IMG/VR virus record: IMGVR_UViG_3300006802_011525
Span: 1-21,760 of that record
Length of the DNA stretch: 21,760 nt
Strand: one strand, 5' to 3'
Source of the DNA: a virus
Part shown: piece after piece, positions 11,357 to 15,989 of the stretch
Layout: the number at the start of each line of letters is the position of its first letter
Position numbering within the stretch: position 1 is the first letter of the stretch
Translations under genes and position numbers: made by a program
The notes under the pieces: generated by a model
What the model was told of the DNA's origin: nothing
What the model saw: only the letters and a program-made list of their open reading frames with translations
The model's database searches: none

Positions 11357-11831
11357 AGTATTCCACCTGTCGAAGGTACTTGGCGAGGATCTCGACCTCC
11401 GGGATGTCGGGCCACTTCTCTCCGGTCTCCTCGTACAAGCCAGACCGCTTGGCGTTTGCGAGGTTGCGATGCATCCAGTTGGCGAACTCGCTCAGGCTGC
11501 GAACACCGTGGTGCTCCATCGCGAAGTTCGTGATGTACAAGATGTCGTTCTCGTGCTTGAGCCGGTCGGTGTTCTTCAGCACCTCGGGGATGTGGTCGTA
11601 TGCGTCGTGCTTCTCCATCGCCGCAGGACGGTCAAACGGAGACGGCTCGACGTCCCTGGATGGCTTCTTGGCCTCCTTGCCGATAGATGGGATGTCCTTC
11701 AGGAATCCAGCTAGGACAGACTCTCCGCTGATTCCTTCGTCGATGCCGTCTTTTGTGACCCGGCCACCCCCTGGAAGATCGACCCCCAGTTCGTCGCCAC
11801 CTTCGACCAATCGAAGTGCTGCCTCGCCCAT
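11343..11831 (-). CDS. Unknown 162-aa protein overlapping the glycosyltransferase end
   Basis: I do not recognise this protein. The first ~70 residues are Gly/Asp/Pro-rich and look disordered (LVEGGDELGVDLPGGGRVTK). From residue 72 it becomes compact and helical: MEKHDAYDHIPEVLKNTDRL, ILYITNFAMEHHGVRSLSEF and EVEILAKYLRQVEYYGRR. There is no signal peptide or membrane segment. ATG 11831 has an AAAGGA nine bases upstream but overlaps the preceding gene by 121 bases, far more than other junctions here. ATG 11618 would leave a 91-aa protein made of just the compact part, but with no ribosome site. The compact region is what I would trust. It shares no visible feature with the sugar enzymes, so it may begin the tail block. 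Confidence 0.68.
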   Translation of the reverse strand: MGEAALRLVEGGDELGVDLPGGGRVTKDGIDEGISGESVLAGFLKDIPSIGKEAKKPSRDVEPSPFDRPAAMEKHDAYDHIPEVLKNTDRLKHENDILYITNFAMEHHGVRSLSEFANWMHRNLANAKRSGLYEETGEKWPDIPEVEILAKYLRQVEYYGRR

Positions 11832-12673
11832 GTCTGCATTTCCTTTCGCGTAAACGGCAAATCAGATTCCTTCGCCTTGGATGCCTCGATGGCACTCTCT
11901 GTCCATTCGGCCATCCAGTCGCCATCCTCGTAAATACTACCATCCCGCGCATCGGGGCCGAGATCGTACTTGACCGTCTCCGGCAGACTGGAGCCCTTGA
12001 ACCGGCTCGTAATGGGGATGCAGCCCAGCGCCTGGCACTTCATTGCCGTGATGCAACTCGTCTCATAGAAGGCCGTCGGGTAGAGCCAGAACTCGGTCGT
12101 AGACATAGACTCATGAAGTTCTTCGTGGCTAACCATCCCGTGCCACGTCACGCCTTCGGACTCGTACTCCTTGACCATGGCCTCGATCCTGGTCTTCAGC
12201 TCGCGAAGGGCCGGGATCACACTCATCGAACGCTTGTAGTGCGGGGTGAAGCCGTAATAGATGTCCAGGGTCGCAGTCGGGATTGCCTCGCGGATCGTCG
12301 GCCACGCCTTCAGGAGGGCCTCGAGCCCACGGTCAGGGCTGCTGTAGTAGGCAAAGCTGTGCGGGCGGCGCGTCCTTGACTTCAAGGTCATCGCCTCAGA
12401 CATCTCGACCACATCCCTCGAGATCCCGTTGGAGATCGGGACGACAAGGTCTCCCCAGTCAGCCTCGACAAGGGGCTTGGCGTGGAAGTCGGACAGGCAC
12501 ATGGCCCCATCAAGATGCTCCCTCAGCGACTCGGGGAAGGCGCTCATGTTGTTGATGTGGTCGTGAACCCACACATACCTGGCATCAGCCTTGGTGGCCT
12601 TCGGGATCATGTGCGTACCGCGCCACTGAACGAAGACTCCAGGACTGTCGTCCACGAGGCGTAGTGGCACCAC
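11711..12673 (-). CDS. GT-B (GT4-like) glycosyltransferase, C-terminal part of the split protein
   Basis: The frame from GTG 12673 gives 320 aa. It opens with DDSPGVFVQWRGTHMIPKA, which fits the end of the GT-B N-terminal domain. YVWVHDHINN (33-42) is the W-x-H-D segment typical of this group, and DLVVPISNGISRDVV (75-89) leads into the donor-binding Rossmann half. Later motifs are SSPDRGLEALLKAWP, TWHGMVSHEELHESM and FYETSCITAMKCQALG. The last corresponds to the GT4 E-x7-E motif, but the second Glu is Lys (E204, K212). The C terminus (WARQHFDWSKVATNW) is a usual GT4 end. Two starts are possible: GTG 12673 (overlap of 67 bases), or ATG 12610 in an ATGA overlap with the upstream stop, which would drop conserved residues. 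It may not be an independent gene at all. It overlaps the following gene by 121 bases. Confidence 0.75.
   Translation of the reverse strand: MVPLRLVDDSPGVFVQWRGTHMIPKATKADARYVWVHDHINNMSAFPESLREHLDGAMCLSDFHAKPLVEADWGDLVVPISNGISRDVVEMSEAMTLKSRTRRPHSFAYYSSPDRGLEALLKAWPTIREAIPTATLDIYYGFTPHYKRSMSVIPALRELKTRIEAMVKEYESEGVTWHGMVSHEELHESMSTTEFWLYPTAFYETSCITAMKCQALGCIPITSRFKGSSLPETVKYDLGPDARDGSIYEDGDWMAEWTESAIEASKAKESDLPFTRKEMQTWARQHFDWSKVATNWGSIFQGVAGSQKTASTKESAESLS
11841..11846 (-). promoter_or_regulatory. Shine-Dalgarno supporting the ATG at 11831
   Basis: AAAGGA on the minus strand lies nine bases before the ATG at 11831, inside the 3' end of the glycosyltransferase gene. The only later in-frame start, ATG 11618, has no such site. 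This favours the long-overlap start. Confidence 0.5.
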
Positions 12674-14154
12674 ACCACGCCATGCTCGTCCGCCCCGAAG
12701 TCCTCCTCGAGGGGCGAGCAGTAGACCTCCACATGCATACCAGCAGCCACCAGCTCGCGAGAGAGGTAGATGACGGCCTCCTCGGATCCTCCGACCCCCT
12801 TCGCGAGACTAGACGTACTCCAGTTGGCACCAGACGCAGGCCCGCACCAAATCATCACCGTGGTCTTATCCTCCGGCCTGTCGGGGCGCTTGGCTCTGCC
12901 GACATCCGGGATGATGTACATCTCGTCAGGGGCTCCAGCGTAGATGTAGTCCCCTAGATCCTCTGCGACCATGCTGTAGGCCAAGTAGCGCCGCTTGATA
13001 CCCTCCTGGCGGATAAGGGCGTTCATGTGCTCCTCAGCCGCCTTGGAGTCAGGCTTGATCTTGAGCAGCTCCTTGAACGACTCGATGGCCGACTCGTTAT
13101 CGCCAAGTGCGGCGTGCGCCCGTGCCGATGTGTACATCGGGCTATAGGCGAGGAAGTGTCGGTTGACCGCACTCCCCTCGTACACCTGACCGTAGGCCCC
13201 AATGCGACCAATGGCGGCCAGCGCCCCCTTATGGTCGCCCATCTCGCAAAGCACCTGGCCGATGTACACCCAGGGTGTGTCGCGCTCTGGGTGCAACGCA
13301 GCCATCTCGCCATACGTTCCAAGGGCCGCCTCGTGGTGATCGAGGTCGCGCAAGATAGAGCCCAGATTAGTGAGCGCCCTCCACTTCTCATCGTCGGTGG
13401 GGTTGCTCTGGATGGCGGCCTTCACCGCCCGCATGGCGCCGCGATTGTCCTCCAGCGCCAAGTAGGTCGTGCAGAGCCCAAGCCACAAGCGGGCGGTCAT
13501 CTCGCCGCCGTCAGCAACGTACTTCTCAAGGATCCACTTGTTGCGATTGGTGGACCCCATGTGGTCACGGCCGACCTTCAGGTGGCGCATACAGTAAGGC
13601 GCCTTGGTGGCGTCCACCAGCTTGTAGCCGCTGTCGGTGAAGCCACACTGCTCGTGAAGCACGCCATGCCACCTCGCGGCCCCCGTACGGAACACCATCT
13701 GCGTAGCGACCTCGGTGTTGCAGTCCCCGGTCACAGTGTCGAAGTCGTATTCGTACTTCACGGACATCGCGCCAACGTCTGGATTGGCGAACGACTTCTC
13801 TACGTCCTCTCTCCAAAGAGCGCCAGACTCCAGCACGGTGTCGCTGTCGATCCAAAACCACACGTCGCCGGTGACGTGCTCAAGAGCGCGATTGCGAGCC
13901 TCGGCAAAGTCGTGGATCCAGCCCTCTTCTTGGTTTCCGTCCTGATCCTCCCATGTGTCGAAGTTCAATGGGACGCCGATGTCGTCGCACACATCCCTGG
14001 CCACGTTCTCGATGTCCATGCTCAGGGACTGGCCTGGCACGCACGTCTGAACAATGCAGACCTCGTCTGCAAACGGAACCGTGGACATGAGGCTCCTGCG
14101 AAAGTCCGCAGCGGAAGACCCGCCACGCACAATCATAGAAAGCGTAATCTTCAT
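12607..14154 (-). CDS. GT2 glycosyltransferase with TPR repeats and the N-terminal half of a GT-B domain
   Basis: This 515-aa protein has three parts. Residues 1-200 are a GT2 domain of the TPR-associated type: KITLSMIVR at the start, WIHDFAEARNRAL (79-91) and the metal-binding WFWIDSDTVL (99-108). The usual D-x-G-S-x-D turn is replaced by VQTCVPG (35-41). Residues ~220-380 form about four TPR-like helical hairpins (ARLWLGLCTTYLALEDNRGA; WVYIGQVLCEMGDHKGALAA; YTSARAHAALGDNESAIESF). From residue 431 a new alpha/beta domain begins (TTVMIWCGP, then GVGGSEEAVIYLSRELVAAG), which is the acceptor-side Rossmann half of a GT-B enzyme. That domain breaks off after GVVWCHYASW and ends at a TGA at 12607. 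Its continuation is in the -1 frame in the next gene. The original protein was probably one ~830-aa polypeptide. Confidence 0.82.
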   Translation of the reverse strand: MKITLSMIVRGGSSAADFRRSLMSTVPFADEVCIVQTCVPGQSLSMDIENVARDVCDDIGVPLNFDTWEDQDGNQEEGWIHDFAEARNRALEHVTGDVWFWIDSDTVLESGALWREDVEKSFANPDVGAMSVKYEYDFDTVTGDCNTEVATQMVFRTGAARWHGVLHEQCGFTDSGYKLVDATKAPYCMRHLKVGRDHMGSTNRNKWILEKYVADGGEMTARLWLGLCTTYLALEDNRGAMRAVKAAIQSNPTDDEKWRALTNLGSILRDLDHHEAALGTYGEMAALHPERDTPWVYIGQVLCEMGDHKGALAAIGRIGAYGQVYEGSAVNRHFLAYSPMYTSARAHAALGDNESAIESFKELLKIKPDSKAAEEHMNALIRQEGIKRRYLAYSMVAEDLGDYIYAGAPDEMYIIPDVGRAKRPDRPEDKTTVMIWCGPASGANWSTSSLAKGVGGSEEAVIYLSRELVAAGMHVEVYCSPLEEDFGADEHGVVWCHYASWTTVLESSFSGAVRT

Positions 14155-14912
14155 TGCGTCTCCCTTAGATCCCAAGAGCCGCCAGAAGACTTAAACACGA
14201 AGTCCTTCTTGGCTGCCTCTAGCTTGCTTGTCATGAGGTTGTACATCTCTTTGCGCTTCTCACCCCACGCGGAGTGCGGGCGCTCGTGCCAGAGCTGATA
14301 CGCACTGACTCCGTGGTCTTCGTCGAAGTACACGGGCTGCAAGCCTCGACCGCGAATGAGGCACGCAGCGAACCAGGCGTCCTCCCAGAACAGATGGGTG
14401 AAGTCCTCGTCTCGGCCTCCAACGCCATAGATGTCCTTCTTCTTGAGGGCAGTCATTGCGAACATGGGGTCTCTGGAAAACCCGGCAGAAACACACCCCG
14501 GCGGAACCTTGCCGTTCGTCAGAACCTGAGTGCGCCCAAGCGTGCCGTCCTCGTCCAAGTCCCACACGGCACCGACGTTGTACATGCGCGGGCGCTCCTC
14601 GCAGAGCACCTCCATGCAAGTATCCGTCTGCATGACAACGTCATCGTTCATGCACAGGATGATGTCGCCACGGGCCGCCCGGTAGCCACGGTTCAGCGGC
14701 TCAGATGGGCCTGCTGGGTATGGACGATCGTTGTAGATGTACTCCACGATGCGACCCTCGCACACCGCCTGAGTGTCGTCCGTGGAGCCATCGTCGACCA
14801 CGATGATCTCGTAGTCGAATGACACTCGCTGTCTCTTGATGGCGTCCAGTACCTGAGCCAGCGCCCAGGACTTGTTGTACGTCGCCATGACGACGCTGAC
14901 CTCAATACCCAT
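14151..14912 (-). CDS. Glycosyltransferase family 2 (GT-A fold)
   Basis: This 253-aa protein moves a sugar from a nucleotide-sugar donor to an unknown acceptor. VSVVMATYNKSWAL (residues 6-19) and EIIVVDDGSTDDT (35-47) are the signature of family 2. MNDDV (88-92) is the acidic metal-binding motif in place of DxD, and FWEDAWFAACLIRGRG (175-190) carries the catalytic-base-like ED pair of this family. No membrane segment is seen, so it should act in the cytoplasm. I chose the ATG at 14912 because GT2 proteins begin like this, and it overlaps the upstream stop by only 11 bases. A start at 14975 would add 21 residues (PLIALESSHLRIGSQEW and on) with no GT2 similarity. Next gene begins in an ATGA overlap. 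Confidence 0.85.
   Translation of the reverse strand: MGIEVSVVMATYNKSWALAQVLDAIKRQRVSFDYEIIVVDDGSTDDTQAVCEGRIVEYIYNDRPYPAGPSEPLNRGYRAARGDIILCMNDDVVMQTDTCMEVLCEERPRMYNVGAVWDLDEDGTLGRTQVLTNGKVPPGCVSAGFSRDPMFAMTALKKKDIYGVGGRDEDFTHLFWEDAWFAACLIRGRGLQPVYFDEDHGVSAYQLWHERPHSAWGEKRKEMYNLMTSKLEAAKKDFVFKSSGGSWDLRETQ
14160..14166 (-). promoter_or_regulatory. Shine-Dalgarno deciding the GT2-TPR start
   Basis: AAGGGAG on the minus strand lies five bases before the ATG at 14154. That ATG also forms an ATGA overlap with the stop of the preceding gene. Together these reject the upstream TTG at 14175, which has no such site. Confidence 0.6.
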
Positions 14913-15489
14913 AGGCGGCCACCATTCCTGCGAGCCAATCCGTAGGTGGCTCGACTCGAGGGCAATCAAAGGCACGCTTCAAATCCAACCCCACTGGGCC
15001 AATAGGGTCGGCGCCAAGAAACGCAGCGAGCCTATCTGTGTAGCCTCCTGACCCATGGTGCAAATCCTCGAATCGCATGTCGATGCTTGGCATGGAGCCG
15101 CGCACCTCACCGGCACGAATGTTGAAGAGGATCCAGTCAAGGTATCTCGCCTTCACGCCAACGTCCGGGCCAAGGCGCTCATTCGTGGCATCGCGAACCC
15201 TGGCCAGGATCGCCCTTGGATCCCTCATGCAATGGACGTACACGCAGTCACCGCCGACTCCGCTGCAAAGAGCCAGTGTGCGCCCGGCTAGCTTCACGGC
15301 GGTGCCCGCCGGGAGACTCTCTAGGTACCCAACCGCGTCGCCCCCTGAGAGCAGCAACGTGTTGAGTTCCAGGTCGTCAAGGGACGTGTTAACCCTCGGC
15401 GGCTGCTCGTAGCCCATGCCGTACACAATGCGTGCAGTGACTCGCGAACCTGAGCCGCCGTAACCGCCGATCAAGACCAGATCCCTCAT
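14902..15489 (-). CDS. Sulfotransferase-like P-loop protein (first copy)
   Basis: This 195-aa protein resembles PAPS-dependent sulfotransferases. The N terminus MRDLVLIGGYGGSGSR (1-16) is a beta strand plus a Gly/Ser-rich phosphate-binding loop in the place of the 5'-phosphosulfate loop. VYVHCMRDPRAILARVRD (83-100) matches the strand and R-D-P helix that bind the 3' phosphate. DMRFEDL (137-143) matches the common R-x-E-D-L strand, and the C terminus (GLDLKRAFDCPRV) contains the usual Asn/Arg-like acceptor-end region. Such enzymes move sulfate from PAPS to sugars or other hydroxyl and amine groups. Length is short for the family (250-300 is usual), so it may be a minimal version. It lies between a methyltransferase and a GT2 gene; a sugar substrate is inferred. 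A kinase of similar fold cannot be excluded. Confidence 0.7.
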   Translation of the reverse strand: MRDLVLIGGYGGSGSRVTARIVYGMGYEQPPRVNTSLDDLELNTLLLSGGDAVGYLESLPAGTAVKLAGRTLALCSGVGGDCVYVHCMRDPRAILARVRDATNERLGPDVGVKARYLDWILFNIRAGEVRGSMPSIDMRFEDLHHGSGGYTDRLAAFLGADPIGPVGLDLKRAFDCPRVEPPTDWLAGMVAAYGY

Positions 15490-15989
15490 GCCTTGATCCC
15501 GCTGTAATACGAGTCAACTCCGTTCCAGCCAGACTGGCCCGTTCCGTCCACCCCAAGGGAGAGCATCTCGCCTGCCAGCTCGTGGTGCGACACGCCGGAG
15601 TAGTGCTTGCCGTCTGGGGCGACCTCGACCTCGTGCATTCCTCGAGCCGGGGCAGCGCACGTCAGCACCACAAGGCCGCCAGGCACGAGGTATTCAACGC
15701 CCTTGGCTAGCGACTCGCGCCAGAACGGATCGTGCTCAAGCATCTCACTTGAGATGAGAACGTCGAATCTCGCCCCGCCGTCAAGGTCAAGCTCGTGGCA
15801 CAGGGATACGACATCAACGTCCGGGCCAGCCCTCCAATCAACGCCGACGTACTCTTTGGGATCAGTGAAGAAATCCCTGACGGTGCCGTTGATGTTGTAA
15901 GAGCCCAGCTCCAGGACAGAGGCGTTGCGGAAGTACGCGGGATGCTTGGCCTTGACGGTCTCTATGAACCGCCTCTGGTGTTCGTGCAT
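15486..15989 (-). CDS. SAM-dependent class I methyltransferase
   Basis: This 167-aa protein has the order of motifs of a small Rossmann-fold methyltransferase. Motif I is VLELGSYNINGT (residues 25-36), in place of the common E/D-x-G-x-G-x-G loop. Motif II is YVGVDWRAGPDVDVV (47-61), whose acidic residue would bind the ribose of S-adenosylmethionine. Motif IV is FDVLISSEMLEHDPFW (75-90), like the type-11 methyltransferases, and the post-motif strand is LVPGGLVVLT (101-110). The substrate is unknown. It has no DNA-methylase DPPY or NPPY catalytic motif, and with three sugar-transfer genes following, methylation of a sugar or capsular intermediate is the best guess. Its stop and the next ATG form an ATGA overlap, which links it to the sulfotransferase-like gene in one translational unit. 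Confidence 0.8.
   Translation of the reverse strand: MHEHQRRFIETVKAKHPAYFRNASVLELGSYNINGTVRDFFTDPKEYVGVDWRAGPDVDVVSLCHELDLDGGARFDVLISSEMLEHDPFWRESLAKGVEYLVPGGLVVLTCAAPARGMHEVEVAPDGKHYSGVSHHELAGEMLSLGVDGTGQSGWNGVDSYYSGIKA

Follow-up and report, generated by a model that had tools for sequence, protein, structure and literature searches.

Comparable gene architectures are known both from a phage isolate and from other glycosyltransferases. The protein UOF78238 of the phage isolate ctKR88 (MW202524, Manatee Spring) has the same GT2-TPR-GT4 domain order as the locus analyzed here, encoded in one ORF of 762 codons (stop counted). This ORF directly follows the capsid gene, which matches the location of the gene in the window. 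It is 29% identical to the window protein over its length; its frame is unbroken, and it aligns without interruption across the point at which the window changes frame. In other relatives, the GT-B enzyme is divided over two ORFs, which in several cases meet in an ATGA junction; unlike in the window, the division falls in the linker that connects the Rossmann domains, not within one of them. Alg13/Alg14 and EpsE/EpsF provide a precedent for GT-B enzymes made from separate genes (PMC8993221). However, they belong to another glycosyltransferase family and their halves meet at a domain boundary, and nothing in them corresponds to a gene interrupted within a Rossmann domain. In the literature, we found nothing specific on the GT2-TPR-GT4 phage family.

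The window, that is, the whole stretch of DNA that was analyzed, is a linear viral record of 21,760 bases of the IMG/VR type, from a tailed phage; its genes include those for portal, capsid, and tail spike. Its GT2-TPR-GT4 locus is very probably a single glycosyltransferase gene that has lost its frame through a small indel. The features concerned are the following.

12607 to 14154, minus strand: ORF1, 515 aa, from the ATG at 14154 to the TGA at 12609-12607
ORF1, residues ~1-215: GT2-like domain (Pfam Glycos_transf_2, 20.5 bits, below the cut-off)
ORF1, residues ~220-375: TPR region (TPR_2, 5e-12)
ORF1, residue ~430 (GVGGSEE) to W501: start of the GT4 (GT-B) domain (Glyco_transf_4, E 0.011)
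12631 to 12670, minus strand: frame-change zone, in which all joins score within ~4 bits of the best; best point 12652 (W501 / D in the -1 frame)
12611 to 12652, minus strand: -1-frame stretch DDSPGVFVQWRGTH, 5' of the ATG at 12610, carrying the conserved strand V-F-[IV]-x-W-R
12607 to 12651, minus strand: frame-0 tail of ORF1 past the break, 14 residues (TTVLESSFSGAVRT) and the TGA, with ATGA at 12610-12607
11711 to 12610, minus strand: ORF2, taken from the ATG at 12610; matches Glyco_trans_1_4 with E 1e-5 and reaches 277 bits against the family profile
12341 to 12430, minus strand: inter-domain linker (NGI to SSPDRGLE), intact in the window and the place of the split in 13 relatives

The original prediction held that the 515-aa gene ends with a partial GT-B domain followed by 14 unrelated residues and a TGA, and that this domain is carried on in the -1 frame. 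Both statements are borne out. After ...GVVWCHYASW, ORF1 runs into the TTVLESSFSGAVRT tail, which has no counterpart in relatives; its match to the family profile ends at profile position 491, leaving 13 residues past the match. The -1 frame instead reads DDSPGVFVQWRGTH-MIPKATKADARYVWVHDHINN..., with DDSPGVFVQWRGTHMIPKATKADARYVWVHDHINN... running on to the stop at 11711. ORF2 covers what is left of the N-terminal Rossmann domain, together with the entire C-terminal GT4 domain (SSPDRGLE, ETSCITAMK). Its frame is open upstream to 12808, with GTG starts at 12673, 12670, and 12655; the -1-frame stop nearest upstream of the join is a TAG at 12811, which leaves ~155 bases open where at least 80 had been proposed.

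The usual GT4 motif is E-x7-E. In ETSCITAMK (12060-12030, minus strand) the window follows the family consensus E.SCITAMK, with a lysine in place of the expected second glutamate. At its 3' end (11831-11711, minus strand), ORF2 may extend for as many as 120 bases into the next ORF, which is in a different frame and has its putative start at 11831.

To place the join, each possible join was scored against a family profile built from 42 distinct fused relatives, with the window left out. The joined protein reaches 517.8 bits, against 229.3 for ORF1 alone and 277.3 for ORF2 alone. It gives a single continuous match from profile position 7 to 768, far above chance, in which both Rossmann domains are matched. 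The range from 12670 to 12631 brackets the join predicted at 12655-12640, and the frame favored by codon usage, as judged from the window's own genes, changes there as well. At the best point, the alignment reads ASW/DDSPGVFVQWR in the window versus AKWDPDRALDLFVAWR in L009. The one uninterrupted reading frame that characterizes the family is thus absent from the window, with the frame change at ~12652. Placing the indel in the homopolymers GGGG (12696-12693) or CCCC (12714-12711), both upstream of the best place, lowered the score.

We gathered relatives from viral and bacterial contigs, adding ~115 further loci. The GT4 domain is unbroken in 101 of the 120 loci compared (window not counted), lies in two ORFs in 13, and is represented by its C-terminal part only, or by no usable match, in the remaining 6. 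All 13 natural splits fall at profile positions 567-579, in the linker between the Rossmann domains, and have clean ends. The break in the window, at profile position 491/493 and inside the N-terminal Rossmann domain, is unique among the loci compared, and none of the 120 changes frame at that point. In the tree, the window groups with the fused loci L009, L036, and L120, its nearest relatives (support of 0.91 for the group with L036). These results support the reading that had been suggested, namely a single GT-B domain disrupted by an indel. Two findings had been named as speaking against that reading, namely separate genes in relatives without a fused homologue, and a 515-aa C terminus complete by itself; both were looked for, and neither was encountered.

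The two-gene GT4 loci (L039, L040, L043, L044, L050-L053, L055, L057, L058, L072, and L003) share a common layout, with an N chain that ends in NGI/NGV.. and a C chain that starts with M.RN..YxSSYDRGLE. An ATGA junction occurs in at least six of them (L039, L043, L052, L057, L058, and L072). The halves are separated by additional DNA in L044 and L055, and in L003 (5172-7208; MW202497) they flank a GroEL gene and two small ORFs. Some split versions have a methyltransferase domain attached to the C-terminal GT4 chain; it was tested in L052 (6225-7541), where it matches Pfam Methyltransf_23 at 2e-20, and long C chains are also found in L043 and L057. Since two-gene loci are scattered among fused loci in the tree, splitting (or re-fusion) of the GT4 gene may have occurred more than once.

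The place of the break was mapped on a structural model of L009, restricted to its GT4 part (mean pLDDT 83.8, pTM 0.83) and folded with an alignment of the window and IMG/VR loci only. The model resembles solved GT-B enzymes, PimA and AviGT4 among them. The break in the window maps to the loop between strands 74-78 and 88-94, the latter being the W-R strand, which reads VFVQWR in the -1 frame of the window and VFIAWR or LFVAWR in relatives. This strand is absent both from ORF1 and from the product of a restart at the ATG at 12610. The upstream -1-frame stretch that carries it is worth 14.5 bits (277.3 from 12673 versus 262.8 from 12610). Such conservation of the codons for strand 88-94 in the -1 frame would be expected if this frame was translated in the whole protein until recently.

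The ATGA at 12610 had raised the alternative that translation of ORF1 ends at its TGA and that of ORF2 begins anew at the ATG overlapping it, giving by design a GT-B enzyme that assembles in trans. The junction is indeed present at the end of ORF1, and the related two-gene loci with ATGA show that the principle exists in the family. Yet the natural splits, without exception, lie in the linker, whereas the window is split some way upstream of it and adds 13-14 unrelated residues. A restart would also leave the conserved W-R strand in neither chain although its codons are kept in the -1 frame, and only weak Shine-Dalgarno pairing is predicted in front of 12610 (-3.8 kcal/mol versus -8.4 for ORF1). 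Natural split GT-B enzymes are divided at the linker and keep all core elements, whereas the window loses strand 88-94. While the ATGA itself stands, we therefore consider coupled translation of two chains very unlikely. Marginally less credence still attaches to the broader idea that a working GT4 enzyme is made despite the break within the N-terminal Rossmann domain, be it through frameshifting at a site that has no known slippery motif or through complementing chains.

Two further explanations would make the frame change functional by slippage. Programmed -1 ribosomal frameshifting, yielding a short protein along with the full-length enzyme, would fit the direction of the change, the overlap that is open for ~200 bases, and the presence of family motifs in both frames. 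However, the overlap lacks a classical X-XXY-YYZ heptamer throughout, not only near the join as had been noted. The looser motifs of PRFect still rest on runs of equal bases (PMC10885494), and from 12692 to 12606 no base is repeated more than twice in succession. The sole weak candidates (GGGGG at 12799-12795) switch frame upstream of the best place and would put ~48 unrelated residues in the domain, which lowers the family score. Downstream RNA structure does not exceed chance (fold z-scores of -0.8, -1.2, and +1.2, for folds without pseudoknots), and relatives are fused without a frame change, so that there is no conserved recoding site. We regard programmed frameshifting as highly improbable. 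Phase variation, in which slippage would toggle the gene on and off and the contig would show the off state, draws on the fact that glycosyltransferase genes are classic targets of such switching. However, the join contains neither a homopolymer tract nor a tandem repeat, the best tandem re-pairing leaves at least two mismatches, and none of the 120 relatives is broken at the site of the window; the probability of phase variation is close to negligible.

We thus favor an indel, which we infer from relatives of ~30-40% identity. It would sit in the loop that precedes the W-R strand in the first (N-terminal) Rossmann domain of GT4, and its effect on the frame would be that of a deletion of 3n+1 bases (or a gain of 3n+2). 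A deletion is the most likely type. In the joined protein, the loop from GV to the W of WR has 20 residues, compared with at least 21 in 137 of 142 aligned rows and 22 in 90 of them. Because the loop is two residues under the commonest length, a deletion of ~7 bases fits better than the loss of one base or the gain of two and, judged from distant relatives, would be preferable to a single-base error. The shorter loop could, however, also be natural. A gain of two bases scored 515.8 bits, versus 517.8, and made the loop shorter still. Family motifs and codon bias are kept on each side of the join, each in its own frame, which suggests that the indel is recent. As written, the gene would yield a truncated protein made up of the GT2 and TPR parts and an incomplete Rossmann domain; of GT4, no more than a fragment would be produced, so that GT4 activity should be lost in the version of the window.

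The indel may be either a genuine mutation of the phage or an error of assembly or sequencing. A DNA pattern that spanned the join with a variable gap revealed no near-identical sister across it, and a nucleotide search with the locus against phage records gave no match. When ORF2 or the capsid protein served as a single query, protein scans of viral contigs likewise returned no relatives, and hence no sister phage was found. Damaged copies of the same gene family do occur elsewhere in IMG/VR: like the window, L018 and L011 have the gene cut by a small deletion or rearrangement. Unlike in the window, the breaks fall in the GT2/TPR part, and near-identical intact sisters exist (L019 for the former, L010 and L027 for the latter). 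L018 lacks 25 bases that are present in L019, to which it is 98.6% identical, and this deletion could be a mutation. L011 equals L010 on both flanks but is rearranged and frame-broken within the gene, damage that looks like an assembly error.

Between the capsid and tail genes of the window, several modification-type genes lie in a row (14151-15989, minus strand). The genes before the broken one comprise a methyltransferase-like ORF, a 195-aa ORF, and a GT2 glycosyltransferase. Together with the broken gene, this run suggests a cassette for the modification of surface glycans or of the virion.

The break in the window is an ordinary one, and the two-gene GT-B relatives are of greater interest. 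For metagenome contigs, the case advises caution, as a lone frame break is not evidence of recoding when the gene is intact in some 100 relatives and none of them has the same break. At the same time, it brings to light a phage GT-B family that truly includes two-gene members, split at the linker and often coupled through ATGA, in which the assembly of GT-B halves could be tested.
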